DNA from: Acidobacteriota bacterium
Lineage (GTDB): Bacteria > Actinomycetota > Acidimicrobiia > Acidimicrobiales > Microtrichaceae
DNA length: 56,687 nucleotides
Direction of reading: 5' to 3'
Assembly (NCBI GenBank): GCA_003577145.1
Contig: QEUP01000021.1
Span: 1-56,687, forward strand
The translations under genes were made by a program, and so were the position numbers. Shown piece by piece: positions 153 to 35,221 of the stretch (the first letter of the stretch is position 1; each line of letters opens with the position of its first letter). The notes under the pieces were generated by a model. That model was not told the DNA's origin and did not search any database. It saw nothing but the letters and a program-made list of their open reading frames with translations.

Positions 153-1103
153 ATGGGAGCACTAGAGGGCCGGGTAGCGATCGTCACCGGCGCCGGCAGG
201 GGCCTCGGGCGGGAGCACGCGCTGCTGTTCGGTGCCGAAGGCGCCAAGGTGGTCGTCAACGATCTGGGTGGCGCCACCGACGGAACCGGCTCAGACCTCG
301 GTCCAGCCGAGGAGGTCGTCGCCGAGATCCGCGCAGCAGGTGGCGAAGCCGTGGCGAACACCGACAGCGTCGCTGACTGGGAGGGAGCACAGCGTCTGGT
401 CAACACTGCGATAGAGGAGTTCGGCGACCTCCACGTCCTCGTCAACAACGCGGGCATCCTGCGCGACCGTGTCTTGGTGAACATGACCGAAGACGAGTGG
501 GACGCGATCATGCACGTCCATCTCCGCGGCCACTTCTGCCCCACGCGTTTCGCCGCGGCCTACTGGCGCGAGCGGTCCAAGGCCGGAGACGAGGTGAAAG
601 CCTCAGTGGTCAACACATCCTCGGGAGCCGGCCTGCTGGGCAACTTCGGGCAGACCAACTACTCGGCGGCCAAGGCGGGCATCGCCGCCTTCACGATGGT
701 GGCCGCCCAAGAGCTCGGCCGCTACGGTGTTCGGGTGAACGCCCTCGCGCCGTTGGCCCGGACGCGACTCACGATGCAGACCCCCGGGCTGGAGAACGCC
801 GTCGCTGCCCCCGAGGAGGGCTTCGACGCCTGGCATCCCGGCAACGTGTCGCCGCTGGTCGCCTACCTGGCGACGGCCGACTGTCCTTTCACCGGCGGCG
901 TGTGGCATGTCGGCGGGCACGAGGTCGCCCTCTACGAAGGCTGGCGCCTGCTCGAACCGCTCACCGCCGACGACCGTTTCACGGTCGAGGAGCTCACCGA
1001 GCGCGCTCCTCAGCTCCTGGAGGGGAGGCCCGAGCTCGCTTCGACCGGCACACCTCTCCAAGAGGTGACCGTCAGCTTCCTCAAGCGCCACCGCCTCATG
1101 TGA
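153..1103 (+). CDS. short-chain dehydrogenase/reductase, 3-hydroxyacyl-CoA dehydrogenase-like
   Basis: A 316-residue classical SDR, expected to be a cytosolic NAD(P)-dependent alcohol/ketone oxidoreductase. The cofactor motif TGAGRGLG is at residues 12-19, NNAG at 98-101, the catalytic serine in the NTSSGAG region near 156, and the YxxxK pair at Y170/K174. The segment NDLGGATDGTG and the longer C-terminus resemble the SDR half of peroxisomal MFE-2/HSD17B4-type 3-hydroxyacyl-CoA dehydrogenases, so oxidation of a hydroxyacyl-CoA is the likely role; that is inference from family and neighbours. The ATG has a good ribosome site (GAGGAGCGAGCA) just upstream. The 3' end overlaps the end of the convergent thiolase gene by 8 bp. 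Confidence 0.9.
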   Translation: MGALEGRVAIVTGAGRGLGREHALLFGAEGAKVVVNDLGGATDGTGSDLGPAEEVVAEIRAAGGEAVANTDSVADWEGAQRLVNTAIEEFGDLHVLVNNAGILRDRVLVNMTEDEWDAIMHVHLRGHFCPTRFAAAYWRERSKAGDEVKASVVNTSSGAGLLGNFGQTNYSAAKAGIAAFTMVAAQELGRYGVRVNALAPLARTRLTMQTPGLENAVAAPEEGFDAWHPGNVSPLVAYLATADCPFTGGVWHVGGHEVALYEGWRLLEPLTADDRFTVEELTERAPQLLEGRPELASTGTPLQEVTVSFLKRHRLM

Positions 1104-2286
1104 CTCGGGTGCCGACGATGGAGACGAAGCTGACGCACTCGCCGGGGGCGCCACCCAGGTTGTGCGTGAGGCCCAGCGTCTTGTCGGTGTCGATCTGGCG
1201 TTCGGCGGGGGCTTCGTGCCGTAGCTGCAGCCAGCACTCGAAGAGCATCCGGAGGCCGGAGGCCCCGATGGGGTGCCCGAAGCTCTTGAGGCCACCATCG
1301 GGGTTGACGGGAAGCTCCCCGTCGAGATCGAAGGTCCCGTCGAGCACCTCTTGCCAGGCCGTTCCCCGCTCGGAGAAGCCCAGGTCCTCCATCAACACCA
1401 GCTCCGTCGGTGTGAAGCAGTCGTGCACCTCGGCGAGCGCTAGCTCTTGGCGGGGGTTCTGCACTCCGGCCTGCTGATACGCGTCGGTGGCCGAGCGGAC
1501 GACCTCCTCGAAGGTGGTGTAGTCGTAGGCGGGGTCGATCGGTCCGCTGGCCGGTCCGGCCACGAACGAGAGCGCCTTGACGTACAGCGGGTTGTCGGTC
1601 AGGCGTTCGGCGTCCTCGCTCCGTACGATCACCGCGGCGGCCGACCCGTCGCTGACCCCGGAGCAGTCGAAGATGCCCAGGGGCCCCGCTATCAGCGGGG
1701 AGCAGGCGATGGCGTCCTTGCTTACCTCCCGCCTGAACTGCGCGCGAGGGTTGAGGGCACCGTTGTGATGGTTCTTCCACGCGATGTGGGTGAGGACGTC
1801 CTTCATCTGCCCCTCGTCCACCCCGTACTTCTCGGCGTACGCAGGTGCGAGCAGGCTGAACATGGCCGGCGCCGTCATCTCCACCTGCGTACCGTCGCTC
1901 GGCGGCGGGGTCATGGCGAGGCCCGAGAAGTTGGTGTCCTTGAGCTTCTCGACCCCGACCGCCATGACCACGTCGTATGCGCCCGAGGCCACCGCGTAGC
2001 AGGCGTTGCGAAAGGCTTCCGAACCGGTGGCGCACATGTTCTCGAGGCGGCTCACGGGTCGGTAGTCGAGGTGCAGCGGGCGTGACAGGGTGAGGCCGCT
2101 GATCCCGGAACCCATGGTGCCCAACCAGAAGGCGTCGACGTCGTCGACGGTGATGCCCGCCGACTTCACGGCGTCGGTGCTGGACTCCAGGACGAGGTCG
2201 TCGACGCCCTTGTCCCAGTGCTCACCGAATGGAGTGCAGCCCATGCCGACGATCGCCACCCGATCACGGATTCCGTGTGATGCCAT
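1096..2286 (-). CDS. SCP-x-type thiolase (acetyl-CoA acetyltransferase family)
   Basis: A 396-residue thiolase of the sterol-carrier-protein-x/non-specific lipid-transfer branch. The nucleophile is Cys85 in ENMCATGSE, HDCFTPTE carries the central catalytic-loop histidine, and GHPIGASG carries the conserved GHP histidine, so all catalytic elements look intact. It would cleave a 3-ketoacyl-CoA with CoA at the end of a beta-oxidation cycle. It is the last gene of a minus-strand operon that begins at 7100, and lies 67 bp after the HMG-CoA-synthase-like/DUF35 gene. Enzymes of this branch often work with a DUF35 partner, and the upstream gene ends in exactly such a domain. Confidence 0.9.
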   Translation of the reverse strand: MASHGIRDRVAIVGMGCTPFGEHWDKGVDDLVLESSTDAVKSAGITVDDVDAFWLGTMGSGISGLTLSRPLHLDYRPVSRLENMCATGSEAFRNACYAVASGAYDVVMAVGVEKLKDTNFSGLAMTPPPSDGTQVEMTAPAMFSLLAPAYAEKYGVDEGQMKDVLTHIAWKNHHNGALNPRAQFRREVSKDAIACSPLIAGPLGIFDCSGVSDGSAAAVIVRSEDAERLTDNPLYVKALSFVAGPASGPIDPAYDYTTFEEVVRSATDAYQQAGVQNPRQELALAEVHDCFTPTELVLMEDLGFSERGTAWQEVLDGTFDLDGELPVNPDGGLKSFGHPIGASGLRMLFECWLQLRHEAPAERQIDTDKTLGLTHNLGGAPGECVSFVSIVGTRVT

Positions 2287-2353
2287 CTGTGCTGCTCCTT
2301 CATGATCTGGGACCGCTCGGTCGCGCCAGGCGGCAGTCAGCGGGCCAAGAACG

Positions 2354-3772
2354 TCAGTCCTGTCTCTTCGGGCGGGCCTTCCAGAAGTAGTTGTGTACTC
2401 CCTCGACGGTGGACACCCGCCGGAACGTCATCTCGACGCGGTCGCCGATGGCCACCGATCCGGCGTCGACGTCGGTCAACTCACATTGGTACCTACCGCC
2501 CCCGTCGAAGTCGAGCACGGCCGCGACGACCGGCGGGTTGAGCGAGGGTGCCAGCCGGTCGAGCGTGAAGGTGCGTACCGTGGCGTCGACATCGGCCAAC
2601 GGCTCCTCTTCCATCGCGTCGATCGCCCGGCAGTTGACGCACACCCGGGCCGGCGGGAGGTTGCGGGCACCGCACTCGGTGCAACGCGAACCGATGAACG
2701 CGAACTTCCAGTCCTCGGTCCGCAACGCGGGCGGCGCCGAAGGCCGGACCGGGTCGGGTCGCCGGACGGGCTCGCGGACCAGCGCACCTCTCCAGGTCAG
2801 GAACGACGCGTACGACAGGTCGTTGCATCCGGAATCGATCTGGTCGGCAACCGTCGGAGTGGCGCGCCGGCCCAAGACTGCCTCGGTGACACGGAACAGC
2901 GCGACGTCGGCGCCGTCAGCCAGCACCACGACGGCGACGAGCTCATCAGGTTCCGCCACGTCCAGGACCGACGCGAGGAGCAAACCGGCGTGTGCGGTAC
3001 CCGAGCATCCCACCGTCGCGCTCAGGTCGTCGACGATGGCCTCGGGCTTCGCGCCGCTGCGCTTGAGGAACTGCCGGACAGCGCGGGGCTGCGGGCCGGT
3101 CACCATCAACCGATCGACGGCATCGAGGCCGACTCCGGCCTCTTTGAGCGCGTCTGTGAAGGCCTGCTCGCCCAGCGGGGCGTAGGCGTGTTCGGCGAAG
3201 CGCTCCTCCCATCCCTCCGAATGATCGGTGCCGGGCTCACGCCAGCGGTCCAGGAACTCGTCGGTCGCCGAAGCCCAGCAGATCAGCTCGGCAAGCACCG
3301 GGGCGACCTCGGTCCCTTCGCCGCAGACGAAGGCTGCCGCGGCGTCTCCGCTGCCGCTCTCGTCGGCCCCACCGGCCCGACCGCTGCGGACATCTGACAG
3401 GACGACCAGCGTGGGAGGACCCGATTCCAGGCCGGCCCGCAACGCACCCGCCCCGGAACGCACCGAGCCGACCATGTCGTAGGCGGCCGCGGAGTCCGCC
3501 AGGTCGAGGGCCGCGTGGATCGCGGTGCAGTTCGTCTTGTCGAGGTAGGGAGGAGCTGATGTGGCGAAGCAGGCACTGCTCAGCTCAACCGAAGGGTCCA
3601 GACCACGCAGGGCGATCCGCGCAGCCTCGACGCCCATGCTGGTGGCATCCTCGTCGTAGGCGGCGACAGCGCGTTCCCCGGGCGCTGCCGGGACGCCCAG
3701 TGCCTCGGCGATGGCAGCTCGCTGCAGGCGGAAGTAAGGGACGTAGGCCCCGTAGGCGATGATGCCCGCCAT
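2354..3772 (-). CDS. HMG-CoA-synthase/KAS III-like protein fused to a DUF35 zinc-ribbon/OB-fold domain
   Basis: A 472-residue two-part protein. Residues 1 to about 330 resemble the hydroxymethylglutaryl-CoA synthase/ketoacyl synthase III fold, with a candidate nucleophile Cys82 in KTNCTAIHAA and GCSGTAHAG near 255-263. From about 355 there is a DUF35 module: zinc ribbon C364-x2-C367 and C378-x2-C381, followed by an OB-fold. DUF35 domains usually support thiolase-family partners, as in ChsH2 with Ltp2. The fusion probably acts on an acyl-CoA together with, or like, the thiolase encoded immediately downstream. The exact reaction is not known. It lies 15 bp after the ligase gene in the same minus-strand operon. 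Confidence 0.8.
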   Translation of the reverse strand: MAGIIAYGAYVPYFRLQRAAIAEALGVPAAPGERAVAAYDEDATSMGVEAARIALRGLDPSVELSSACFATSAPPYLDKTNCTAIHAALDLADSAAAYDMVGSVRSGAGALRAGLESGPPTLVVLSDVRSGRAGGADESGSGDAAAAFVCGEGTEVAPVLAELICWASATDEFLDRWREPGTDHSEGWEERFAEHAYAPLGEQAFTDALKEAGVGLDAVDRLMVTGPQPRAVRQFLKRSGAKPEAIVDDLSATVGCSGTAHAGLLLASVLDVAEPDELVAVVVLADGADVALFRVTEAVLGRRATPTVADQIDSGCNDLSYASFLTWRGALVREPVRRPDPVRPSAPPALRTEDWKFAFIGSRCTECGARNLPPARVCVNCRAIDAMEEEPLADVDATVRTFTLDRLAPSLNPPVVAAVLDFDGGGRYQCELTDVDAGSVAIGDRVEMTFRRVSTVEGVHNYFWKARPKRQD

Positions 3773-3787
3773 CTGCGTCTCCTTCCG

Positions 3788-5410
3788 TCAGCCGTCAGCG
3801 GCCGTTCCGGCAGTCCAGCGTGCCTCGTCGACATACCCTCCCGCTACTCGGTCCCAGGTGCGAGCATTGAGTGCGTCGTCCCGTAGCTCGACCTTGCGAA
3901 CTCGCAGGGTCGGCGTCTTGGGCAGCTCCTCGACGAGCTCGACGTAGCGGGGGAGCATGAACTTGGGCATAGCGGTGACGAGGAAGTCGAGCAACGCCGC
4001 CTCATCGAAGTCCTCACCAGGTTTGGGGATCACCAGCACCTTCACCTCGTCTTCACCGTGCCCGAACTCCGACGGGGCAGCGATGGCGGCGACCTCCTGC
4101 ACGCCGGGGTGCTCACGTACGTGCCCCTCCACCTCCAGGGACGAGATGTTCTCACCGCCCTTGCGCATGGCGTCTTTGAGTCGGTCGACGAAGTAGTAGT
4201 TGCCCTCGCCGTCCCGGCAGAAGCCGTCGCCGGTGTGGAACCAGCCGTTGCGCCAGGCCTCGGCCGTCTTCTCCGGCATGCCCCAGTAGCCCGAGTTCAG
4301 CTCCCAGGGTCGGTCGCTGCGCACGATCAGCTCACCGACCTCGCCGTCGGGCACCTCTTCGTCGTGCTCGTCGACGATGCGGAGCTCGTATCCGGGCCGG
4401 ATGCGACCGCAGCTGCGCCAGTTGACCCGGTCCTCGTAGCCGACGTAGAGGGGCGCGCCGATCTCGGTCATGCCGTAACCGGTGAAGGTCTTCACGCCGA
4501 AGCGCCGCTCGAACTCCTCGATCTCCGGGAACAGCGGTGCGGTCTGGATGGTCGTCAACGGGTTGTCGGCGTCGTCGGGCTGCGCGGGCATGGTGAGCAG
4601 CAGCTGAGCCATGATCCCAATGAGGCCGGTCGTGTTGCAGCGAAACGCCCTCACGTCGGACCAGAACTCAGAGAGGCTGAACACCTCCCGCAGCACCGCC
4701 TTGGAGGCGTGCAACGCGGTCATGTAGGCGAGGCTCTTACCGCCGACGTGGAAGGTGGGGAGGCAGGCGTAGTAGGAGCTCGACTCGTCGAGGATGCCGG
4801 GTGGCGCGGCGTTGGGGAACTGGTGGAGCTCCGCCCAGGGCACGAGCACCCCCTTGGAGGGTCCGGTCGTGCCCGAGGTGTAGATCATGCAGGACACGTC
4901 GTAGTGCGCCGGACCGTCGAGATCAGCGGCGGGTTCGGCCAGGTCGAGGAACTCGCCACCGCCGATGACCGGTGGTCCGAGCTGGGGGGGCTCGCCGGAC
5001 AGGTCGGGGACGATGACAGATCGGAGCCTGCTGAGGACCTGGGGTCGGACCTCACCCAGCTGCCCCAGGAACCGCTCGCTGGTGACCATGAGCTCGGCGC
5101 GTGAGTTCTCGATCAGGTACTCCAGCATCCGACCGCGGAACTGGGTGTTGATCGGCACTTCGATCGCCCTCAGCCAGGCGAGGCCCAGCCAGCAGTGGAG
5201 TGACTCGAAGGAGTTGGGGAAGAAGGTGAGCACCGTCTGGCCGGGTTGGACCCCTTGGCGCCGGAAGGCGTCGGCCCAGCGGCGATTGGCCTCGTCGTAG
5301 CCCCGATAGGTGCAGGCTCGGCCGCCAACGTCTTGGAGGGCCACCTGGTCGCCATGGGTCTCGGCTCTCCGGCTGATGGTGAAGGGAAGGATCCTGTCTT
5401 GCTCGAGCAC
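3788..5410 (-). CDS. AMP-forming acyl-CoA ligase (FadD/CaiC-like)
   Basis: A 540-residue ANL-superfamily ligase that would activate a free carboxylic acid to its CoA thioester with ATP. The P-loop-like motif YTSGTTGPSKG is at 177-187. GYGMTEIGAP follows near 315, the HTGDGF hinge region near 393, and MRKGGENIS near 412. In the C-terminal A10 segment the usual Gly-Lys reads Leu-Arg (PTLRVRKVELR), so the normal adenylation lysine is not in its standard place; related CaiC-like enzymes vary here. Co-transcription with two enoyl-CoA hydratases and a thiolase suggests it feeds the island's substrate into beta-oxidation. The substrate cannot be read from sequence. Confidence 0.88.
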   Translation of the reverse strand: MLEQDRILPFTISRRAETHGDQVALQDVGGRACTYRGYDEANRRWADAFRRQGVQPGQTVLTFFPNSFESLHCWLGLAWLRAIEVPINTQFRGRMLEYLIENSRAELMVTSERFLGQLGEVRPQVLSRLRSVIVPDLSGEPPQLGPPVIGGGEFLDLAEPAADLDGPAHYDVSCMIYTSGTTGPSKGVLVPWAELHQFPNAAPPGILDESSSYYACLPTFHVGGKSLAYMTALHASKAVLREVFSLSEFWSDVRAFRCNTTGLIGIMAQLLLTMPAQPDDADNPLTTIQTAPLFPEIEEFERRFGVKTFTGYGMTEIGAPLYVGYEDRVNWRSCGRIRPGYELRIVDEHDEEVPDGEVGELIVRSDRPWELNSGYWGMPEKTAEAWRNGWFHTGDGFCRDGEGNYYFVDRLKDAMRKGGENISSLEVEGHVREHPGVQEVAAIAAPSEFGHGEDEVKVLVIPKPGEDFDEAALLDFLVTAMPKFMLPRYVELVEELPKTPTLRVRKVELRDDALNARTWDRVAGGYVDEARWTAGTAADG

Positions 5411-5434
5411 CTCGAAGTTCCTTTCCGGCGGGGA

Positions 5435-6274
5435 TCAGCGGAGATCCTCGGGGATGCCCACGTGCTTGGACCCCGACCATTTCGGCTGGCGCCTCTCGAA
5501 GAAGGCCACGACCCCCTCAACGGCGTCAGCCTGCTCCCCGATCCACCAGGTCAGCCTGGTCTCCCGCTGCATCGCCGCCAGCCGGTCCGTCTCACCCAGT
5601 CCCTCGTGCACGAGCTTCTTGGTTATGGCGACCGGAGTAGGTGCGCAGTTGACCGCGATGTCCCGGGCCAGCTCGAGCGCCTCGTCCAGCACCTGATCGC
5701 GAGGCACCGCTCTGGAGACGAGGCCGATCCGCGCCGCTTCTGTCCCACTGATCGTCTTCCCGGTGAGCAGCAACTCCAGCGCCCGCGACAATCCCACGAG
5801 TCGCGGGAGCAGCCATGTCGAGTTGGCCTCCGGAAGGATCCCCCGCCGCGGGAAGATGAACGCCAGCTTGGCGTCCTCGGCGGCGATGCGGATGTCGAAC
5901 AGGAGCGGCAGGGTCAGGCCGGCGCCGACTGCGGCGCCGTTGATAGCGGCGATCACCGGAGTGCGCATGTTCCAGAAAGCGGCTCGTTCGGCGACCGAGT
6001 CGGAGTCGACACCGAGCTGTTGGTCGTGGGCCTCGTGGGTGGCCCTGCCGAAGGCCTCCCCCCCCGCACTGATGTCGAAGCCGGAACAGAACGCCTTGCC
6101 GGCACCGGTCACGACGATGGCACGCACATCGTCGTCGGCATCGAAGCTCCACATCGCATCGTGGAAGGCCCGGTCCATCTCGAAGTTGATGGCGTTTCGT
6201 TGCTCCGGCCGGTTCAGGGTGATCGTGGCGATTCCTACCTCGTCGACCTCGGTGATGATCGTGTTGTTGCTCAC
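5435..6274 (-). CDS. enoyl-CoA hydratase/isomerase (crotonase family)
   Basis: A 279-residue crotonase-fold protein. The oxyanion-hole segments are AFCSGFDIS and INGAAVGAGLTL, and LPEANSTWLLPRLVG carries the usual acidic active-site region. A longer open frame extends upstream to 6361, but it would overlap the preceding gene. The GTG at 6274 (VSNNTIITEVDE) gives the normal family N-terminus and a 28-bp gap after the upstream hydratase, so I chose it. It would hydrate or isomerise a 2-enoyl-CoA. It is the second gene of the operon controlled by the palindrome at 7109-7126. Confidence 0.88.
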   Translation of the reverse strand: MSNNTIITEVDEVGIATITLNRPEQRNAINFEMDRAFHDAMWSFDADDDVRAIVVTGAGKAFCSGFDISAGGEAFGRATHEAHDQQLGVDSDSVAERAAFWNMRTPVIAAINGAAVGAGLTLPLLFDIRIAAEDAKLAFIFPRRGILPEANSTWLLPRLVGLSRALELLLTGKTISGTEAARIGLVSRAVPRDQVLDEALELARDIAVNCAPTPVAITKKLVHEGLGETDRLAAMQRETRLTWWIGEQADAVEGVVAFFERRQPKWSGSKHVGIPEDLR

Positions 6275-6302
6275 GTTTGCGCCTCGGCTCCTTGATCTGA
6301 GG

Positions 6303-7100
6303 TCATCGGCCGGTGAACCCGGGTGCACGTCTCTCCTTGAAAGCCTGCACCGCCTCGGCATGGTCCTGCGTGCCGAACAGGTGGATCAGGCCGCGGGCTA
6401 CGAACTCGCCGAGCCCCGCCAGGTCGGCCGGCGTCATCTGGGTCCCCTTGGCGAGCCCTGCCTTGAGGTAGCGGAGCGCCTCGGGTGGTTTCGACGCGAT
6501 CCTCGCCGCCAGGTCTGTCGTCTCGCCCAGGACATCGTCGACCACCTTCGACACCAGCCCGATGCGATCGGCCTCGGCCGCGTCGATCACCTCACCGGTG
6601 AACAACATCTCCGCAGTACGGGAGGGTCCGATGAGCTGGGGTAGCCGTCGCAGGCAGGCGAAGTCCGACATGAGGTTGAAGTTCACGTAGAGGGCACCGA
6701 ACAGCGCCCCCGGACCGGCGTAGCGGATGTCGGCGAGCAGGGCGAGGTCGAGTCCCACACCGACGGCGATGCCGTTGACCGCGGCCAGCAACGGCTTCTC
6801 GAATTGCAGGATCCGCGTCGTCTCGGGCGTCGTTGCCGGTATCACCCGCTGCAGTGGCGCCAGCCCCGCCGCCAAAGCAGCGGGCTCCCATGCCTCCTTG
6901 ACGTCGTCACCGGCGCAGAAGGCTTCGCCCGCCCCAGTCAGGACCGCACAGCTCACGCCCGGGTCGCGGTCGGCCTCGGCGAGCGCCTCGCTGAGCTGCT
7001 CGCCCAGTGCCAGGGTGAGCGCGTTCATGGCATCTGGCCGGTTGAGGGTGATCGTCGCCACCCGCGCGTGGACCTCGTACAGCACGAGCCCGTCACTCAT
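6303..7100 (-). CDS. enoyl-CoA hydratase/isomerase (crotonase family)
   Basis: A 265-residue crotonase with the oxyanion-hole segments AFCAGDD and NGIAVGVGLDLALLADIR. The position that is often Glu in the PE/SS active-site segment reads SDFACLRRLPQLIG, so it may be an isomerase or have altered acid-base residues. It is the first gene of a five-gene minus-strand operon (hydratase, hydratase, ligase, HMGCS-like/DUF35, thiolase). The start ATG lies 7 nt after a TAACAT -10 element embedded in the operator palindrome, which suggests a leaderless transcript under direct control of the regulon repressor. Confidence 0.88.
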   Translation of the reverse strand: MSDGLVLYEVHARVATITLNRPDAMNALTLALGEQLSEALAEADRDPGVSCAVLTGAGEAFCAGDDVKEAWEPAALAAGLAPLQRVIPATTPETTRILQFEKPLLAAVNGIAVGVGLDLALLADIRYAGPGALFGALYVNFNLMSDFACLRRLPQLIGPSRTAEMLFTGEVIDAAEADRIGLVSKVVDDVLGETTDLAARIASKPPEALRYLKAGLAKGTQMTPADLAGLGEFVARGLIHLFGTQDHAEAVQAFKERRAPGFTGR

Positions 7101-7151: not shown

Positions 7152-7934
7152 ATGGCCCCATCGCTCGACGACATCGCGACCGAACTCGTCGCCGAACAGC
7201 AGCGGCTCGACGACCTGGTCTCCCCGCTGGGCGAAGGCGAGTGGTCGCGGCCCTGCATCGTCGGGCCCTGGACCATCAGGGCTCAGGTGGCGCACCTAGC
7301 CGACAGCGAGCGCCTGGCGACCCTGGCCGCCACCGACGAGGCGGCCTTCGCCGAGGCCCTCGCCCAAGCCATCGCCAACAGCGAGAGGCTCGAAGCGGGC
7401 GATCCGCCTGACCTCACGGGACTCGAACCAGCGGCGCTGCTCGAGCAGTGGCGCCTGCGCCGTCGTGCAACCGTCAACGCGGTGCTCGAGCGTGGTCAGC
7501 AGAGCCGCATCCCATGGGTCACCGGATCCTTGAGCAGTCGGAGCTTCCTCACGGCCCGGCTCATGGAGACGTGGGCCCACAGCCAGGACGTCCACGACGC
7601 GCTGGGCGCCACCCATGCGGAATCGAACGCACTGTTGCACGTCGCCCACCTCGGAGTCGCCACCCGAGCGTTCTCCTTCGGCAATCGCGGCCTGGAGCCC
7701 CCCGCCGACGACCTCCGGGTCGAGCTGGTCGCACCCGACGGAACGATCTGGGCCTGGGGTCCACCTGGCGCTGGCGGGAGCGTGGAGGGACCCGCCGTGG
7801 ACTTCTGCCTCGTCGTCACCCGCCGCCGCCACGTCGACGACACCGGCCTCTCCGCCACCGGTGGGGCCCGACGCTGGCTAGACATCGCCCAGGCCTTTGC
7901 CGGACCGCCCGTCGACCCGGCTCGCTGGCCCTGA
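7152..7934 (+). CDS. TIGR03084-type DinB/maleylpyruvate-isomerase-like protein
   Basis: A 260-residue protein matching what I know of the TIGR03084 family: an N-terminal four-helix DinB/MDMPI-N domain (GEWSRPCIVGPWTIRAQVAHLADSE) with candidate metal ligands such as H288-equivalent histidines in VAHLAD and in METWAHSQDVHDAL, then a short C-terminal domain. Members are actinobacterial and often sit next to acyl-CoA catabolism genes; some relatives are mycothiol-dependent isomerases. The reaction is unknown. The frame is open further upstream, but the ATG at 7152 places the operator at 7109-7126 in its promoter region. It is transcribed away from the hydratase operon and ends 66 bp before the convergent transporter gene. 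Confidence 0.75.
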   Translation: MAPSLDDIATELVAEQQRLDDLVSPLGEGEWSRPCIVGPWTIRAQVAHLADSERLATLAATDEAAFAEALAQAIANSERLEAGDPPDLTGLEPAALLEQWRLRRRATVNAVLERGQQSRIPWVTGSLSSRSFLTARLMETWAHSQDVHDALGATHAESNALLHVAHLGVATRAFSFGNRGLEPPADDLRVELVAPDGTIWAWGPPGAGGSVEGPAVDFCLVVTRRRHVDDTGLSATGGARRWLDIAQAFAGPPVDPARWP

Positions 7935-7956
7935 CGGCGCGCCGACGGCTCGCCGT
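7934..7956. terminator. inverted repeat between convergent genes
   Basis: ACGGCG and CGCCGT form a 6-bp stem around an 11-nt GC-rich loop immediately after the TGA of the TIGR03084 gene. There is no clear U tract on either strand, so the terminator role is tentative. Confidence 0.35.
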
Positions 7957-7999
7957 GGCCGTGGCCATGCGTGGGGGCGCAGCTGTGACGAGGCATCGA

Positions 8000-10900
8000 T
8001 CACAGGTCGCCGCGGTGGAGGTAGACCCGTTCGACTTCCTCGAAGGAGTCAGCCACCTCGGATGCGGCACCTCGCATGACGATCTCACCTCGCTGCATGA
8101 CATACACCCGGTCGGCCACGTCGAGCACGGCCCGGCCGTGCTGCTCCACCAGGAGCACACCGAGACCACGGTCCGCCGAATCCCTCAAGGAGCGCAGCAG
8201 TCGCATGACCACCATCGGCGCCAGTCCGAGCGAGAGCTCGTCGGCCAGCAGCAGGCGGGGCTCGGCTGCCAGAGCACGGGCCAACGTGAGGATCTGCTGC
8301 TCACCGCCCGAGCACAGCCCGGCCCGGCGTCCCAGCAGGGGCTCCAGCTCGGGGAACAGCTCCAGAGCCGTGTCGCGCCGGCCCTGTCCGAGACGGAGGT
8401 TGGCCCCGACCGTGAGCGCGGAGATGACCGCGCGCTCCTCGGGCACGTAGGAGAGCCCCTGACGCGCCCGACGGTGCAGCGGTGTGGGCTTGTCCCTGCC
8501 CAGCCAGCAGACCCGGCCCGTCATGGGCGTGAGCTCACCGGCGAGTGCCAGCAGCGTCGTGCTCTTGCCGGCACCGTTGGGACCGAGCAGCACGACGACC
8601 TCACCGGTGCGGACCTCGAGATCGACACCTCTGACCGCAGCCAGCTCGCCGTAACCCGCGGAGAGGTCCATGGCGCTGATGAGCGGGCCCGACCCGTCAC
8701 CGGCAGGCGGTCCCACCCGGACGGGAACCGCTGCCTCTCCCTTCACGATGGGTGCGCCCAGGTAGGCCTCGCGGACCGTTTCGTTGCACTGGATCTCCGC
8801 GGGGCTCCCCTCGGCGATGCCGGCACCGGCGTCGAGCACGACCACCCGGTCGCAGATGTCGAAGACGAGGGCAGTGTCGTGCTCGACCAGCAGGACGGCC
8901 AGCCCCCACTCGTGCGCGAGGCGGCCGAGTATCGCCCCCAGCTCGGCTGTCTCCCGGCTGTCGAGGCCCGCGGCGGGCTCGTCGAGCAGCACGACCGACG
9001 GTTCCGCAGCGAGAGCTCTGGCAATCGCTACCAGACGTCGCTGCCCGTAGGGCAGCTCACTCGGTCTCCGGTCGAGGACGCCTTCCAAGCCCAGATCCCG
9101 TGCCGCCGCGACCGCCCGCGGACTGAGGCTCGACCGGCGCGGCACGACCAGGTCGCTCAGGTACGCCAGGGGGTCCTTGCGATCGCAGGCAGCCCGCAGG
9201 TTGTCCCGCACCGTCATGCTGTCGAACAGCTCGAGGCCCTGGAAGGACCGCCCGATACCGGCCGAAGCCCGCCTGCGGGGGCCCCAGCGGTCGATCGTGC
9301 GCCCGTCGAGGGTGACGGCTCCGGCGCTGCACCTGACGAAGCCCGTCAGCGCGTCGATCAGGGTGGTCTTGCCGGCGCCGTTGGGGCCGATCAGGCCGAC
9401 TATCTCCCCCGGCCGCAGCTCCAGCGAGACGTCGTGCACCGCTTCGACACCGCCGAAGCGAACCGTCACCCCTTCGGCAGACAACGTTGCCGGTCGTACC
9501 GGATCTGGAACCGGATCCCGAGGCAGTTCCTCCCCGCGGCGACCCCTCCGGAGTCGAGGCCATCTCCTGGTGATTCGCGCGGGCAGGCACAGGCTCACCA
9601 ACCCGTCGGGCACCACAACCAGCACGATGAGAAGGATGAGCCCGAGCCCGGCGAGGACCATGAGGTCGTTGTCGAGGACGCCGCCGAGCATCGAAGGTAT
9701 GAGGTTCCCGGGTGCGACACTGGCACCGACGAGTGCCCCCGCCACGTAGCCCACTCCACCGATGACCGCATAGACGACGCTGTAGATGGAATCGAACACC
9801 GAGAAGGTGGGGAAGAACGTCACCGTCGGCCGGCGGTACGCCAGGAGGATCCCGCCGACGGCGGCTATGGCCGAGGCCAGGCCGAAGGCGTAGAGCTTGG
9901 CGCCGAAGACGCTGATCCCGAGAGCGGCGGCGGCTCGCTCGTTGGTGCGGACGGCGATCAGGCGACGACCCGCCCGGCCGCGGCGCAGGTTCGCCACCAC
10001 CAGAGCGCACGCGACGAACAGGCCAAGGCCCAGCAAGGCATAGCGCTCCGGGTGGGTGAAGCTGTCGAAGTCGACGCCGAAGAGGCGCGGCGGCCCGATC
10101 CTCGTGCCGGTGATGCCGCCTGTACGGGAGGCGTTGGCCAGGATCATGCTCTCGAGGACCAGTGCTAGGCCCAGGGTTGCCACTGCGAGGTTCACCCCCC
10201 TGGTTCGCAGGGCGGGCAGACCGACGAGCAGGCCGATGGGGACGGCAACGGCTATGCCGAGGAGGAACGCCGGCTCGAAGCCGAGGTCGTAGTTGACGAT
10301 CGAGCGCGCGGCCACCCACGCCCCCATCCCGGCCAGCGACCACTGGGCGAGCGACAACTGCCCGGTGTAGCCGGTCACCACAACGAGCGAGAGGAGCACG
10401 ATCGCCAGGGCAAAGGTCGTCGTGGCCGCATCGACCGCGCTGTCGGACAGCACCAGCGCCAACAGCAGGGCAGCCGCTATGACCGCCGGGACGACCAGGG
10501 CGGGGCGGATCATCCCTGCACCGACCTCCGGCGGGCGTTGGGAGGCCTCGTCACGCAAAGGGAGGGCCCTCCCGCGGATCACCAGCACGGCAACGATCAC
10601 GATGAACGGAACCGACCGTGCCCACCCGTCGAGGGCCACGTCGAAGTTGATCTGGGCGAAGGCGATCTCGGATTCGAGTATCCCGATCAGGAGGCCACCC
10701 GCGAAGGTGAGAGGGAAGGAGCGGAACTGCCCTACGAGGGCCGCGGCCAGCGCGGGAACGACGAGAAGAGTCAGGCCGATGACGTCGAGGCCGGTGAGGT
10801 TGACGATGAGGATCGCGGCCAGGACCCCCAGCGCACCTCCGAGCGCCCAATTGACCGTGGCGATCAGATCGGGGGAGATCCCCTGTGCCGCGGTGACCCG

Positions 10901-11425
10901 CCGGCTCTCGGCCACCGCGGTGGTGGCCAGCCCGAAACGGGCCAGCCTGTACACGACTCCGAGCAGGACCGTGAGCCCGGCGCCGATACCCAGCAGGATC
11001 AACCTGTCCTCGCCTATGGTGACATCCCCCCACAGCGTGACTCCCCGGACGGGCAACAGCTTGGACACCAACTGGGCCAGGTCGCCCCAACGGTTCTGCC
11101 CCACACCGAGCAGGAGGGTGAGCAGGCCCAGCGTCGCCACCAGGCGCGACAGCGCAGGGGCGCTGCGGAGCGGGCGCATCACCAGCAGATGGGTGGCCGC
11201 ACCGATGACGGCACCCGCCGCCAGGGCCTCGGCGAACGCCAGCGGCGTCGCCATGCCGGCCTCGCGCGCGTTGTAGAAGATGAACGCCCCGACCATGCCG
11301 ACCGCGCCCTGGGCGAAGTTGACCACTCCCGATCCGCGATAGACCAGGACGATGCCCAGTGCAGCGAGTCCGTAGACGGCACCCGCCCCCAGACCCAGAA
11401 CCGCGAACCGCAAGAACTCGCTCAT
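8000..11425 (-). CDS. four-domain LivH-LivM-LivG-LivF fusion ABC importer
   Basis: One uninterrupted frame encodes both permeases and both ATPases of a hydrophobic/branched-chain-amino-acid-type (HAAT) importer. Numbering from the TTG at 11440 (ATG at 11425 preferred, adding five residues): LivH-like membrane domain about 6-295, LivM-like membrane domain about 310-620 with the GLPALRTRG signature, LivG-like ATPase about 650-895 (Walker A GPNGAGKT 685-692, signature ELPYGQRR 795-802, Walker B near 816-822, H-loop 854), and LivF-like ATPase about 918-1146 (Walker A 953-960, CSGGEQQ signature 1043-1049, LLLADE 1063-1068, H1101). These four are normally separate genes. No substrate-binding protein is adjacent; the one at 33977 carries the same operator. 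The substrate may be a carboxylate or amide rather than an amino acid. Confidence 0.9.
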   Translation of the reverse strand: MSEFLRFAVLGLGAGAVYGLAALGIVLVYRGSGVVNFAQGAVGMVGAFIFYNAREAGMATPLAFAEALAAGAVIGAATHLLVMRPLRSAPALSRLVATLGLLTLLLGVGQNRWGDLAQLVSKLLPVRGVTLWGDVTIGEDRLILLGIGAGLTVLLGVVYRLARFGLATTAVAESRRVTAAQGISPDLIATVNWALGGALGVLAAILIVNLTGLDVIGLTLLVVPALAAALVGQFRSFPLTFAGGLLIGILESEIAFAQINFDVALDGWARSVPFIVIVAVLVIRGRALPLRDEASQRPPEVGAGMIRPALVVPAVIAAALLLALVLSDSAVDAATTTFALAIVLLSLVVVTGYTGQLSLAQWSLAGMGAWVAARSIVNYDLGFEPAFLLGIAVAVPIGLLVGLPALRTRGVNLAVATLGLALVLESMILANASRTGGITGTRIGPPRLFGVDFDSFTHPERYALLGLGLFVACALVVANLRRGRAGRRLIAVRTNERAAAALGISVFGAKLYAFGLASAIAAVGGILLAYRRPTVTFFPTFSVFDSIYSVVYAVIGGVGYVAGALVGASVAPGNLIPSMLGGVLDNDLMVLAGLGLILLIVLVVVPDGLVSLCLPARITRRWPRLRRGRRGEELPRDPVPDPVRPATLSAEGVTVRFGGVEAVHDVSLELRPGEIVGLIGPNGAGKTTLIDALTGFVRCSAGAVTLDGRTIDRWGPRRRASAGIGRSFQGLELFDSMTVRDNLRAACDRKDPLAYLSDLVVPRRSSLSPRAVAAARDLGLEGVLDRRPSELPYGQRRLVAIARALAAEPSVVLLDEPAAGLDSRETAELGAILGRLAHEWGLAVLLVEHDTALVFDICDRVVVLDAGAGIAEGSPAEIQCNETVREAYLGAPIVKGEAAVPVRVGPPAGDGSGPLISAMDLSAGYGELAAVRGVDLEVRTGEVVVLLGPNGAGKSTTLLALAGELTPMTGRVCWLGRDKPTPLHRRARQGLSYVPEERAVISALTVGANLRLGQGRRDTALELFPELEPLLGRRAGLCSGGEQQILTLARALAAEPRLLLADELSLGLAPMVVMRLLRSLRDSADRGLGVLLVEQHGRAVLDVADRVYVMQRGEIVMRGAASEVADSFEEVERVYLHRGDL

Positions 11426-11505
11426 GGCACCCCCGACCAAGGTTGTGCGGTACCCACGCGATGGGACCCGAGCCGGCTCACGATTCCGACTGCGGGGACC
11501 CGAGA

Positions 11506-11523
11506 AGTTAGCCTTGGTTCACA
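11506..11523. promoter_or_regulatory. 18-bp regulon operator (copy 2), TetR/transporter intergenic region
   Basis: AGTTAGC-CTTG-GTTCACA reads on the minus strand as TGTGAAC-CAAG-GCTAACT: a perfect left arm and a right arm with two differences from GTTAACA. It lies between the divergent transporter gene and the TetR gene, 44 bp upstream of the TetR ATG, as expected for autoregulation plus control of the importer. Confidence 0.7.
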
Positions 11524-11567
11524 TTAACGAAACACGACCGTTTCCCGGCGATCTGCGAGCACACACC

Positions 11568-12161
11568 ATGGCCGAGCCGGCAACTGACACGACAGGGGGC
11601 GATCGCCGCAACCGCCGCGCCCTCATCCTCGACGCCGCGATCGAGTTGTTCCGCCGGCACGGCTTCGAGGCCACGGGCATAGACGACATCGGCGCGGCCG
11701 CAGGGATAAGCGGGCCCGGCGTGTACCGCCACTTCGAGGGCAAGCAGGACATCCTCGATGCTGCCGTCGGGTACGGGAGCGAGCGGCTACTCGTCCACTC
11801 GGAGGAGATCCTCGGGGCCGAGCGAGCTCCCCGGGACACCCTGGACGCGCTCGTGCGAAGCATGGTCAGCGACGTCCTGGATGAGCCTGCTCTGGTCACA
11901 GTGCTTCTGAGAGAACGCCGCAACCTCAGCGAGCGCGGCAGGCAGGCGTGGGACCGCGCACTGCAGACCTTCCTCGCTGAATGGGTCGAGGCGCTGCGTA
12001 GGCTGATGCCCGACGTCGATGAGGCGGCGGCACGGACCAGGATCTGGGTCGCCATGGGAATGGTGCTTTCGGCTGCACAGTACGACTCGGAAGTCGACCG
12101 GGATGACATGGCGGAGCTCTTGCAGCAGATGCTGCTCGGGGCTCTCACGGCCGGGGGTTGA
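11568..12161 (+). CDS. TetR-family repressor, candidate master of the regulon
   Basis: A 197-residue TetR/AcrR regulator. The N-terminal helix-turn-helix is about residues 17-62 (ALILDAAIELFRRHGF, then GISGPGVYRHFEGK). The C-terminal ligand-binding domain is divergent, as is normal for the family. The frame is open upstream to 11424, but ATG at 11568 gives the standard N-terminus and leaves the palindrome at 11506-11523 in the promoter. TetR proteins bind short palindromes as dimers and release them on ligand binding, often an acyl-CoA in catabolic islands. It is the only regulator inside the island, which makes it the best candidate to bind the repeated 18-bp site. Direct binding is inference. 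Confidence 0.9.
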   Translation: MAEPATDTTGGDRRNRRALILDAAIELFRRHGFEATGIDDIGAAAGISGPGVYRHFEGKQDILDAAVGYGSERLLVHSEEILGAERAPRDTLDALVRSMVSDVLDEPALVTVLLRERRNLSERGRQAWDRALQTFLAEWVEALRRLMPDVDEAAARTRIWVAMGMVLSAAQYDSEVDRDDMAELLQQMLLGALTAGG

Positions 12162-12236: not shown

Positions 12237-13688
12237 GTGGCCGACGACCTCGCGTTGCTCGATGCGACCGGGCAGGCAGATCTGGTGGCATCCGGCTCAT
12301 GTCAGCCTGCGGACCTGGTCGACGCAGCGATACGACGGATAGAGCGGCTCGACGGCGAGCTGAACTCGGTGATCGCCGAGCGCTTCCAGCAAGCGAGCGA
12401 CGAAGCGCTCTCGGCGCAGCTTCCCAGCGGGCCTTTTCGAGGTGTGCCGATCCTTGTGAAGGATCTCGGCGCCGGCCAGATCGACGGCCTCGCGTACCAT
12501 CGGGGCAACCGGGCGTTGAAGGAGGCCGGTTACCGGCAGAAGGGCGACTCCTGGCTGGTGCAGCGCCTGAAGCGGGCCGGCTTCGTGATCTGCGGCAAGA
12601 CCAACGTCCCCGAGCTCGGCTTCTCCTGCACCACCGAGCCCGTCGCCTACCCCTCCACCCGCAACCCGTGGGATACCATGCGCAGCCCAGCCGGCTCCAG
12701 CGGGGGGTCAGCCGCGGCTGTAGCCGCCGGGCTGGTGCCGGTAGCCACGGCCAGCGACGGCGGGGGTTCGATCCGCATGCCGGCAAGCGTGTGCGGCCTG
12801 GTCGGCCTGAAACCGTCTCGAGGGCGGGTCTCGTCCGGCCCTTTCATCGGAGAAGCGGGGGGTGGTCGCGCAGTCGAGCACGTCGTGACGAGGACGGTGC
12901 GGGATTGCGCCGCCTTGTTGGACGTCCTCGCCGGCGAGGAGGCGGGCGACCCGATCGTCGCTCCGCCCCCGCTGAGGCCCTTCCGCCAGGAGGTCGGTGC
13001 AGACCCCGGGAGGCTGAAGGTGGGGATGATCATCGATGCCTTGGTACCTTTCGGCGGGCCCGACCCCGACGTGGTCGACACGACCAGTGCGGTTTGCCAT
13101 CAGCTCGCTGAGATGGGACATCACATCGAGGCGGCGTGCCCGGTCGCACTCACATCCGGCGACGAGCGTGCCCTGTCCGTCATCACCATCCACGCCGCGA
13201 CGATCGCTGCCTCGGCTGATGTCATCGCCGGCCAGGTCGGACGCGAGGTGGGTCCCGACGACTTCGAGCCCAGGACCTGGGAGCAGATCGCGCTGGGACG
13301 GTCAATCACCGGCACCCAGCTCGCCGGCGCGCGCGAACAGGTGATCGCTTGGTCGAGAGACATGGCAAGGTGGTGGGCCGGCGGGTTCGACCTGCTGGTA
13401 ACGCCGACCGTCGGCACGCCGGCTGCTCCTCTCGGCCGGCTGCAGTTCTCCGAGGGAGACCGTGACGGATCGATGGCGCGCGTGCTGCGGTTCAACCAGT
13501 ACGCTCCCGCGTTCAACTGGACCGGTCAGCCGGCCATCTCGTTACCACTGGGCGAAAGCGGCGAGGGGCTGCCGATCGGCGTACAGATCGTCGCCGCCTA
13601 CGGCCGTGAGGATCTGCTGATCCGCATCGCCTCTCAGCTCGAAGTCGCCAGGCCCTGGTCGGCGAGGCGCCCGGGAATCCACGCGTGA
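12237..13688 (+). CDS. amidase signature-family hydrolase
   Basis: A 483-residue amidase signature enzyme with its Lys-Ser-Ser triad visible: Lys75 in ILVKDLG, cis-Ser154 in AGSSGGS and nucleophile Ser178 in DGGGSIR, with the 24-residue serine spacing typical of the family. It would hydrolyse an amide (or ester) to a free acid, which could then be activated by the ligase at 3788. The start is a GTG directly downstream of a promoter/operator, with no Shine-Dalgarno sequence, consistent with a leaderless message. A second amidase with the same triad (17540-18952) belongs to the same regulon. Confidence 0.9.
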
Positions 13689-17539: not shown

Positions 17540-18952
17540 TCAGGAGACCGGTGGCCTCCGCTCAGCCCATGGCCGCGCCGACTCCAACTGAGCGCACACC
17601 TGGATCAGCGTCGACTCCGCCGCGGGTCCGGCCACCAGCTGCACGCCCACCGGAAGGCCGTTCTCGTCCAGCCCGACCGGCAGGGAGGCTGCCGGTTGAC
17701 CGGTGGTGTTCCACATCGACGTGAACGGGGTCATGGCGAAGATCGCCGCCATGTCCTCAACCCCGACTCCCTCCAGGGAGCCGACCGGCGGCGGGGCCTG
17801 TGCAACCGTGGGAGTGACCAACAGGTCGAAGTCGCCGAAGAACGCCAGCGCCTTGCGGCTCGCCGTCTGCAACGATCGCATCGCCTGGACGTAGATCGTG
17901 CCGGGTATTCCCGTTCCCATCTCCATGAGCGTCCTGGTCCAGGGATCCAGGGTCTCCGGGGGAGGGCGTTCGGCGGCACGTGAAGCGTGGTCGACGGCAA
18001 ACGCGGTTGCCGCGGCCATCAAGTCGTCCGGGCCGAAGATCGGCGGCTCCACCAACTCGACTCGATGGCCCAGCTCGCCGAGCAGCTCCGCCGCCTCCTC
18101 GGCGGCGCGCAGGTGGGCGGGCTCAACCGCCGAGGCCTGCACCCCGGGGTGGGGATGGTAGGCGATCCGGAGGGGTGGCGGCTCGGTCTGCGCGTCCTGT
18201 AGGAAGGGGTGGTCGGCCGGCGGAGCCCAGTAGGCGTCGCCGGTTTCGTAGCCTGCCATCACATCGAGCAGAGCCGAGGCGTCAGCCACGGTCCGGGCGA
18301 TGGGGCCGTCGATGCTGAAGAAGCGCTGCGGCTCCGGTGCCGCAGAGACCCTGCCTCGTGAGGGCTTCAGCCCGAAGACTCCACACCAGGCGGACGGATT
18401 TCGGATCGAGCCCCCGCCGTCTGAACCGTGAGCCAACGGACACAGGCCCGCCACCACCGACGCCGCCGCCCCACCCGAAGAACCGCCGGCTGACCTGGTC
18501 GGATCCCAGGGATTGCGGCCAGGTGGGTAGCCGGGAGGTTCGCTGATGCTCAACGGCCCGAACTCGGGCACGATCGTCTTGCCGAGCAACGGCATCCCCG
18601 CCCTCTTGATCCGCGCCACGACGGCGTCGTCGCGGTCCGGAACCCGGTCGTGCCATTCAGCAGTCCCGTGGGTGGTGCGGATCCCCGCAGTGTCGGCCAG
18701 GTCCTTGATCGAGATGGGGACTCCGAACAGCGGGGGTAGGTCCTCGACCGCCTGCAGTGCCGCATCCGCGACCTCCGCCTGGACGCCGGCGACGTCCGCG
18801 GCGACCGTGACATAGGCGCCCAGCCGGTCGTTGAGCGCCTCGATTCGGCGGAGGTAGACCTCCACCAGCTCCGAGGAGGTGACCTCACGCTTCCGGAGCA
18901 GCCCTCCCAGCTCCAGGGCAGGCATGAAAGCCACCTCTCGATCGTCGATCAT
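17540..18952 (-). CDS. amidase signature-family hydrolase
   Basis: A 470-residue amidase with the complete triad: Lys83 in ISIKDLA, cis-Ser158 in GGSSGG and Ser182 in DGGGSIR (24 residues apart). It would release a free acid from an amide. It is the last gene of a minus-strand operon after an acyl-CoA dehydrogenase and an enoyl-CoA hydratase (28 bp gap), under operator copy 5. The presence of two divergent amidases in one regulon suggests that the imported compound or an intermediate carries an amide, or that two related amides are used. Confidence 0.9.
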   Translation of the reverse strand: MIDDREVAFMPALELGGLLRKREVTSSELVEVYLRRIEALNDRLGAYVTVAADVAGVQAEVADAALQAVEDLPPLFGVPISIKDLADTAGIRTTHGTAEWHDRVPDRDDAVVARIKRAGMPLLGKTIVPEFGPLSISEPPGYPPGRNPWDPTRSAGGSSGGAAASVVAGLCPLAHGSDGGGSIRNPSAWCGVFGLKPSRGRVSAAPEPQRFFSIDGPIARTVADASALLDVMAGYETGDAYWAPPADHPFLQDAQTEPPPLRIAYHPHPGVQASAVEPAHLRAAEEAAELLGELGHRVELVEPPIFGPDDLMAAATAFAVDHASRAAERPPPETLDPWTRTLMEMGTGIPGTIYVQAMRSLQTASRKALAFFGDFDLLVTPTVAQAPPPVGSLEGVGVEDMAAIFAMTPFTSMWNTTGQPAASLPVGLDENGLPVGVQLVAGPAAESTLIQVCAQLESARPWAERRPPVS

Positions 18953-33976: not shown

Positions 33977-35221
33977 ATGAAGGTTCGCCGATCGACACTC
34001 CGGCTGGTGGCGGCGCTGGTCGCGCTGAGCAGCGTTGCCTCGGCCTGCTCGGACGACGGTGGTGATGACGACGGCGAAGACGAAGGGGCCACCACAACGG
34101 CCAGTGTCCCGGAGCTGACCGGTGATCCTGTGAAGCTGATGGTGATCGCCGAGATCGAGGCCGGCGTCGCCAATCCCGAGATCCCCGAGGGCGCCGAGGC
34201 CGCCGCGCAGGCGCTCAACCGTGACGGCGGGTTCAACGGCGGCCCCTACGAGATCATCGTCTGTGACACCCAGAACGACCCCAACACGGCGGCCGAATGC
34301 GGTAGGCAGGCCGTCGAAGAGGGTGTGGTCGCCGTGGTGGGAGCGCTCACACCGCACGCCGGCGAGTACATGCCCCTGCTGGAGGAGAACAGCATCCCTG
34401 CGGTGGGCCTGGTTCCGGCGAGTGCCGCCGACTTCACCAGCCCGATGGCATTCCCGATCTCGGGCGGGCTGCCGACCGCCTCGGCAGGTCTGGCGGCGAG
34501 CCTGGCCGAGAACGGGTCGGAGACCATCTCACTCGCCCGTATCGATCTGCTCGCGGCGGCCGCGATCGCCGGTTTCGCCGACATGGGGTTGGAGCGATAC
34601 GACCAGACCGTGGCCAACGACGTGGCGATTCCCGAGGGTGCTCCTGACATGTCGACGTACGTGGCCGCCGCCGAGGAGGGCGGGACCGACGGGATCCTCG
34701 TCGGCCTGAGCGGCCAGGACGCCACCAACTTCGTCATCGCCGCCCGCCAGTCGAGCCCGGACATGGCCATCTCGATGACGACGACCGACATCGGCGGGGC
34801 CATCGAGGCACTCGGCGACACGGCCGAGGGGATCATCACCAACAACACCTATCTGCCGCCCACCTCCGATACCGCGGCGATCGAGAAGTACCGGGAGGAC
34901 ATGGACGCCGTCGGCTATGGCGACGACCTGACGGGTTTCCGCCTCAACTCCTATGTCTCGGTGATGGTGGTCGCCGACCTGATCACCAAGATCAACGCTG
35001 CCGACCCGGTTGAGCTGGTCGCCGAGTTGAACGCCACCGATGGCCTCGAGACGGGCTATCTTCCCCCGATCCAGTTCGTCGAAGGCGGTGTCGGCGGCAT
35101 CCCGCGGGTGTTCAACCCGTGCGGCATGTCGATGGAGGTCAAAGACGGCAGCCCTACTCCCATCACCGGCAAGTTCATCAACGCCTTCACCGGCGACGAG
35201 TGCGAGCAACCGACCGACTGA
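33977..35221 (+). CDS. LivJ/LivK-type substrate-binding lipoprotein
   Basis: A 414-residue periplasmic-binding-fold (type I, HAAT) protein. Signal peptide with lipobox ASAC and lipidated Cys24, an acidic/Thr-rich linker, then the two-lobed ligand domain (GAEAAAQALNRDGGFNGGPYEIIVCDTQ, VVAVVGALTPHAGEY). Strong ribosome site AGGAGGT before the ATG. No permease or ATPase gene is nearby. The promoter carries the same 18-bp operator as the four-domain importer at 8000-11425, so it is probably that importer's binding protein; that pairing is inference. Confidence 0.88.
   Translation: MKVRRSTLRLVAALVALSSVASACSDDGGDDDGEDEGATTTASVPELTGDPVKLMVIAEIEAGVANPEIPEGAEAAAQALNRDGGFNGGPYEIIVCDTQNDPNTAAECGRQAVEEGVVAVVGALTPHAGEYMPLLEENSIPAVGLVPASAADFTSPMAFPISGGLPTASAGLAASLAENGSETISLARIDLLAAAAIAGFADMGLERYDQTVANDVAIPEGAPDMSTYVAAAEEGGTDGILVGLSGQDATNFVIAARQSSPDMAISMTTTDIGGAIEALGDTAEGIITNNTYLPPTSDTAAIEKYREDMDAVGYGDDLTGFRLNSYVSVMVVADLITKINAADPVELVAELNATDGLETGYLPPIQFVEGGVGGIPRVFNPCGMSMEVKDGSPTPITGKFINAFTGDECEQPTD

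Follow-up and report, generated by a model that had tools for sequence, protein, structure and literature searches.

A probable HAAT-type ABC importer core encoded as a single LivH-LivM-LivG-LivF chain in an Acidimicrobiales genome

Introduction

Importers of the HAAT (Liv) type, TC 3.A.1.4, consist of the permeases LivH and LivM, the ATPases LivG and LivF, and a partner binding protein of the Peripla_BP_6 family. Chains that hold two ATPase domains are known from the DppD/OppD systems, which are peptide importers with separate permease chains. According to one review, fusion of importer ATPases to a permease domain may occur in some cases (PMC8276074). Among the matches listed in a search of the openly licensed PMC literature, with subscription papers and protein databases outside its scope, no title or abstract opening concerned a four-domain LivHMGF chain or an asymmetry of the LivG/LivF ATP sites. 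Here we describe a gene in a 56,687-nucleotide stretch of DNA (hereafter the window: contig QEUP01000021.1, positions 1 to 56,687 of the forward strand, assembly GCA_003577145.1, placed by GTDB in the Microtrichaceae of the Acidimicrobiales) whose product is very probably an entire ABC importer core of the HAAT (Liv-like) type in a single chain, its domains following each other in the order LivH, LivM, LivG and LivF (abbreviated below to H, M, G and F).

A four-domain reading frame and its relatives

The gene occupies window positions 8003–11425 on the minus strand; its 1141 codons begin with an ATG at 11425 and are followed by a stop at 8000–8002. The open frame extends upstream to 11518 (1172 codons), with an alternative TTG start possible at 11440. 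An earlier note on this DNA, made from the sequence alone, had given the span without a strand; the frame it reported is real but lies on the minus strand, as the plus strand of 8000–11425 hits a stop when read from 8000, and a Pfam search at E 0.001 found no family in the four overlapping plus-strand frames, one of them of 906 residues. In the 1141-residue protein Pfam identified two BPD_transp_2 domains (protein E-value 2.3e-40) and two ABC_tran domains (5.5e-57), together with the LivG-type C-terminal element BCA_ABC_TP_C at residues 870–891 (38.2 bits against a cut-off of 25.5). The LivH-like permease domain covers residues 1–290 (10556–11425, with BPD_transp_2 at 10583–11395) and the LivM-like permease domain residues 307–612 (9590–10507, BPD_transp_2 at residues 331–570); these are followed by a LivG-like ATPase domain at residues 647–891 (8753–9487, ABC_tran at residues 664–818), a G-F linker at residues 892–914 (8684–8752) and a LivF-like ATPase domain at residues 915–1136 (8018–8683), all on the minus strand. 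Each quarter of the fusion aligns with the matching part of relatives' H-M-G and F proteins, which gives the order H, M, G, F; residues 917–1136, in the LivF half, can be aligned with the solved chain 1ji0. Third-position guanine-cytosine content is 0.78–0.91 across all 100-codon blocks of the gene. A promoter and terminator scan of 7850–11700 returned no promoter-like site and one terminator-like site, which matches chance expectation. That a full HAAT core stands in one polypeptide in operon order, as the earlier note had proposed, is supported, and an AlphaFold2 model of the full chain folds with high confidence.

The same uninterrupted frame is carried by five other genomes at 57–68% identity to the window protein, which speaks against the missed stop or frameshift that the note had wished to see checked and supplies the proteins of like domain order (1144–1185 codons) that it had suggested looking for. 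These are L044 (1147 codons), from a Lake Baikal Acidimicrobiia metagenome-assembled genome and found by a scan of GTDB with short exact peptide patterns; L064 (1185 codons), found in a whole-genome sample of the order; and L147 (1160 codons, on a 3.0-Mb contig), L148 (1144 codons) and L149 (1163 codons), all three found in a whole-genome sample of the order of G778. Pairwise identity among the six proteins is 55–68%. In a midpoint-rooted tree of 64 concatenated units, built from chosen loci with those lacking H, M and G together left out, the six form one clade (support 0.997) nested in the H-M-G proteins; an earlier tree of 47 units chosen likewise, with three four-domain members, gave that clade a support of 1.0. 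Based on an NG86 comparison of the window gene with that of L147, in which nonsynonymous divergence (dN) was 0.19–0.29 and synonymous divergence (dS) 1.04–1.17 over the four domains, purifying selection acts on each of them. The G-F linker is present in all six proteins at 22–31 residues, and 4 of its 23 aligned residues are identical between the window and L147.

Four-domain chains are rare in the genomes surveyed. An order-level survey of 397 genomes (E 1e-150, with at most two candidates scored per listed genome and some places without a locus) found a four-domain span in one frame only in genomes G000 and G171, and a phylum survey of 396 genomes (1e-115) found a four-domain match in G000 alone. 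Such a match in one frame was present in 4 of 58 genomes of the order of G778, that genome included (1e-240), and in none of 349 genomes from the phylum to which G780 belongs (1e-100), of which 14 returned a match. These samples may overlap. Spread by plasmids was considered and rejected: when 72,556 plasmid records were searched with the fusion by tblastn (E 1e-80), three were returned, covering 41–43% of the query, and none at 80% cover or above.

Two probably unequal ATP sites

In ABC transporters each ATP is held at the interface of the two ATPases, one supplying the Walker motifs and its partner the signature. The LivG half of the window protein has the signature PYGQ and the H-loop VEHD, and the LivF half the signature SGGEQQ and the sequence VEQH, with Gln at the H-loop. 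We surveyed these motifs in 90 unique loci that contain both ATPase halves, LivG and LivF; all but the E. coli control were found by similarity to the window protein or in the window genome. SGG was found at the signature in 0 of 90 LivG halves, that of E. coli (AYGD) included. At the H-loop, 88 of 90 LivF halves had Gln (Glu in L094 and His in L142), while the LivF SGG, the LivG H-loop His, and the Walker A Lys and Walker B Glu of both halves were each present in 90/90. The E. coli proteins share the pattern (LivG AYGD, LivF SGGEQ and VEQN), and the solved chain 1ji0 has VEQN at the H-loop position. A less filtered earlier count gave H-loop Gln in 65 of 66 LivF proteins with a residue there and His in 81 of 82 G-type matches, with GG at signature positions 2–3 in 6 of the 82, a set that included other ABC ATPases.

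In 89 of 90 pairs the two departures face each other in one composite site, and the other site is intact in all 90. As both fall in one site, the asymmetry looks family-wide across the loci examined. Two marks of a degenerate site give different answers here: the non-consensus residues are confined to one composite site, and the Walker B Glu is not missing, being kept in both halves. We infer from these motifs that the intact site would be formed by the LivG Walker motifs and H-loop with the LivF SGGE signature, and that the second site, made of the LivF Walker motifs, the Gln in place of the H-loop His and the LivG PYGQ, probably hydrolyses slowly or only binds. Alternatively, both sites hydrolyse, the changes to the LivG signature and LivF H-loop being tolerated variants without effect; the retention of the Walker A Lys and Walker B Glu throughout would fit this, as would the description of catalytic Glu loss as a hallmark of degenerate sites (PMC7544095), whereas the clustering of the departures in one composite site, with the other always intact, argues against it and leaves this alternative a possible but somewhat doubtful one.

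These counts also bear on the earlier note, which had taken PYGQ for a peculiarity of this protein; SGG at this position is absent from every LivG half surveyed, and the claim does not hold. Its suggestion that the ATP sites may be unequal is plausible, though for all the loci examined and not for this protein in particular, and the Gln for the LivF H-loop His had escaped it: its statement that all H-loop elements were readable is right for the LivG half and wrong for the LivF half.

A modelled single-chain assembly

An AlphaFold2 model of the full chain, made with 59 related sequences, had a mean predicted local distance difference test score (pLDDT) of 90.7 and a predicted template-modelling score (pTM) of 0.89; the stretches of low confidence were the H-M, M-G and G-F joints and the C-terminus, with block pLDDT values of 46 and 57 over residues 891–910. 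The top Foldseek match was DppD, a two-ATPase chain, in the ATP-bound DppABCD complex of Mycobacterium tuberculosis (8wdb), over 545 columns (template-modelling score 0.68 by target, root-mean-square deviation 6.7), an alignment longer than one ATPase whose range is not printed in the Foldseek output, and which is in keeping with paired ATPases in the model. The VIA-align rows mostly cover residues 645–898, so the permease fold was barely tested, and no HAAT permease structure was among the best 50 rows of each structure search. In the assembly that we propose, the LivH and LivM parts would form the membrane pathway, and the LivG and LivF parts, joined by the flexible linker of 22–31 residues, would lie below it as a head-to-tail pair that closes on ATP.

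The chain may instead be processed into parts, or its domains swapped between chains, the fusion then being neutral packaging without effect on stoichiometry or control. The low model confidence and lack of conservation of the G-F linker would permit cleavage or swapping, and several kinds of shorter fusion coexist in the window genome; however, a single chain already supplies both permease and both ATPase domains, the model has a high pTM, and the fusion was retained through the divergence of six genomes, making this an unlikely explanation. That the fusion fixes the stoichiometry at 1:1:1:1, as had been claimed, is trivially true of one chain, but the same ratio is expected of the separate-subunit LivHMGF form.

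Family membership and origin of the fusion

Membership of the HAAT family is indicated by the two permease domains, the LivG and LivF ATPases, the BCA_ABC_TP_C element and, by homology, a Peripla_BP_6 partner. We also considered the urea importer branch (UrtBCDE) in place of the Liv branch, as the protein scores 307.5 bits against the TIGR03410 UrtE model, above the cut-off of 285.8. This is a whole-protein score with two matching stretches, and LptB passes likewise (291.8 against 240) though the fusion is not LptB; the UrtD score falls below its cut-off (266.7 against 304.1), and no urease family was present among the Pfam matches of 20 window frames scanned. UrtBCDE membership is not supported and appears very improbable.

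Shorter fusions are common among the relatives. A tally of architectures in loci fetched by similarity, in which some shorter frames were cut by locus ends, gave 45 H-M-G, 13 H-M, 11 M-G-F, 6 M-G, 6 G-F and 3 H-M-G-F chains, the four-domain genomes rising to six afterwards. The M-G-F fusions, present in 11 of 15 loci returned for the phylum of G780, lie on a distant tree branch. The earlier note had held that at most two subunits are commonly fused, which fails, as H-M-G chains are the usual tree neighbours and M-G-F chains occur in another sampled phylum; its claim of rarity stands for four-domain chains, but three-domain chains are common in this sample.

Among 26 unique loci where LivF is close to the end of H-M-G, 24 have it in the frame of a four-base stop/start overlap. 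ATGA or GTGA terminates 28 of 42 H-M-G genes with a visible stop (exact repeats removed, near-identical rows kept, and LivF elsewhere or beyond the stretch read in some loci), and these ends are weak evidence alone, as TGA accounts for 38 of the 42 stops and a preceding purine is expected about half the time; the frame result is the stronger evidence for an overlap. Based on the nesting of the clade in the H-M-G proteins and on the overlap frame of LivF, the four-domain fusion looks like the final join in a series, requiring a frame change at the junction: in an ancestor with separate H-M-G and LivF genes, the H-M-G stop codon probably overlapped the start of LivF, and the two would then have been fused in frame, though the exact route is our reconstruction. 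The remaining alternative, an assembly or sequencing artefact in which separate genes were joined by a missed stop or false base, has the overlapping frame of relatives' separate LivF, one indel away, in its favour, but it was rejected as having next to no chance of being right, since five further genomes have the same unbroken frame at 57–68% identity (one on a 3.0-Mb contig), the linker varies in sequence yet is always there, and six assemblies would have to share one error. The lineage displays a graded fusion series in which gene overlaps mark where joins can form. The four-domain chain is the end step of this series, most of which its relatives had already completed, and does not amount to a new kind of machine.

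The window's own genome also holds M-G-F, H-M-F, H-M and M-G fusions. The H-M-F fusion (L094:862–3678, minus strand, contig C10) has a separate LivG, so that the joined ATPase is not the next in E. coli operon order. On contig C63 a 1040-residue frame (L093:1582–4701, minus strand) combines a Major Facilitator domain (E 1.1e-36) with LivF-like and LivG-like ATPases in F-G order, and adjoins a fused H-M permease. Elsewhere, same-frame HAAT neighbours are split by a single stop, as H-M/G-F in L087 and L114, H-M-G/F in L089 and L115, and H/M-G-F in L142 (junctions at, for example, L114:8404–8408, L115:9386–9390 and L142:2343–2347).

Neighbouring genes and a candidate binding protein

In the window the fusion gene stands alone. 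Upstream and divergent is a TetR-family regulator (11568–12161, plus strand, its start an internal ATG chosen by eye; TetR_N E 6.9e-17), and downstream is a convergent gene, with its end at 7934, for a protein of the mycothiol maleylpyruvate isomerase (MDMPI) family. We compared this neighbourhood with those of the four-domain loci L044, L092, L150, L151 and L152. A TetR homologue is also divergent and adjacent to the fusion in L150, and the TetR neighbour is a possible regulator of it.

A binding-protein gene immediately precedes the fusion in L044, L092, L151 and L152. The best match to the L044 binding protein in the whole window genome is within the window itself (C48:34112–35212, 48% identity, E 9.3e-102; the next match has 28% identity, E 9.7e-15). 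Based on this match, the Peripla_BP_6 protein encoded at 33977–35221 (plus strand), 22.6 kb from the fusion, is probably its cognate partner, a lipoprotein-like binding protein that would deliver the substrate. In L150, the closest relative, the binding-protein gene near the fusion (L150:13305–14371, minus strand) reads in two frames, being either broken or an assembly slip.

An amidase gene follows the fusion within 1.3 kb in L044, L092, L151 and L152, and counting the window, where it lies across the TetR gene, 5 of 6 four-domain loci have one at this distance, L150 being the other. No amidase was identified in 23 neighbourhoods without a four-domain chain (22 H-M-G and one H-M/G-F; 9.9–19.0 kb read) by the same search that recovers those of L044, L092, L151 and L152. 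The window encodes an amidase at 17540–18952 (minus strand, E 1.6e-102) with 62%, 61% and 60% identity to the post-fusion amidases of L044, L151 and L152, and a second at 12237–13688 (plus strand, E 2.9e-90) with 47% identity to that directly after the fusion in L092. Genes for acyl-CoA synthetase, enoyl-CoA hydratase, thiolase and acyl-CoA dehydrogenase accompany the cassette in varying combinations; in the window, genes of acyl-CoA catabolism at 1096–7100 (minus strand) encode a thiolase, an HMG-CoA-synthase-like/OB-fold protein, an acyl-CoA synthetase and two enoyl-CoA hydratases, and homologues of several of these lie near the fusion in relatives. Based on the amidase and acyl-CoA catabolism genes, we speculate that the substrate is an amide or an acid freed from one, perhaps an amide-type carbon source.

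Two frames of the window were noted in addition. The protein at 2354–3772 (minus strand), beside the thiolase, combines an HMG-CoA-synthase-like part (118.4 bits, cut-off 244) with a C-terminal OB-fold ChsH2_C domain, and that at 23604–25478 (plus strand) is surface-protein-like, with matches to thioester, Ig and PKD domains.

Discussion

The open frame and its conservation, the single clade, the motifs and the model fold are observations; a transport function, the substrate, the roles of the ATP sites, control by the TetR neighbour and the exact route of the join are inferences drawn here. Belief and reserve are about evenly balanced for the fuller proposal that this is a natural one-chain, binding-protein-dependent importer, its domains locked at 1:1:1:1, in which, as in all the LivG/LivF pairs examined, one ATP site would be consensus and the other non-consensus. 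Besides the weakness of the ATGA and GTGA ends, several points weigh against the main reading of the gene as a one-chain HAAT importer core: the NCBIfam equivalog cut-offs for LivG and LivF are missed (297.6 against 362 and 250.8 against 441); the motif counts lean to relatives of the window protein; the dimer geometry comes from a model built with 59 relatives in place of a solved structure; L150, the locus with the two-frame binding protein, showed no amidase over the 19.9 kb read; and in the window the partner genes are scattered, with 22.6 kb between the fusion and the binding protein and 6 kb between it and the amidase closest to those of most relatives. If the fuller proposal is true, a whole Liv-type core in one chain would let each ATP site or permease half be mutated singly, without subunit mixing, and would offer a ready-made single-chain construct with which to test, site by site, how HAAT importers hydrolyse ATP. 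The pattern across the 90 loci, with the signature of LivG and the H-loop of LivF both altered in one site, makes a division of labour between LivG and LivF testable.

Comparison with known systems

LivHMGF of Escherichia coli (HAAT, TC 3.A.1.4) has the same four domains in the same order, depends on a binding protein and shares the ATP-site motifs (AYGD in LivG, SGGEQ and VEQN in LivF); it differs in being encoded by four separate adjacent genes, and the 12 kb read there, with 13 features, includes no amidase. The DppD/OppD proteins of Mycobacterium tuberculosis (8wdb, 8j5q), among the best Foldseek matches, likewise have two ATPase domains per chain in an importer, but are not of the HAAT family. 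The M-G-F fusions (on contig C26 of the window genome and in the G780 phylum) hold three HAAT domains in one chain, a G-F join included, but their LivH is separate, and based on their distant tree branch this join is probably independent of the four-domain one. The H-M-G fusions with a separate LivF in the same order (L021 and L065–L086) have the same H-M-G chain, a LivG part at 51–59% identity and, in most, LivF nearby; they differ in that a gene of its own encodes LivF, as a rule in the frame of the four-base stop/start overlap, that none of the 23 neighbourhoods read has an amidase, and that the nearby binding proteins are more distant (23–38% identity where matched).

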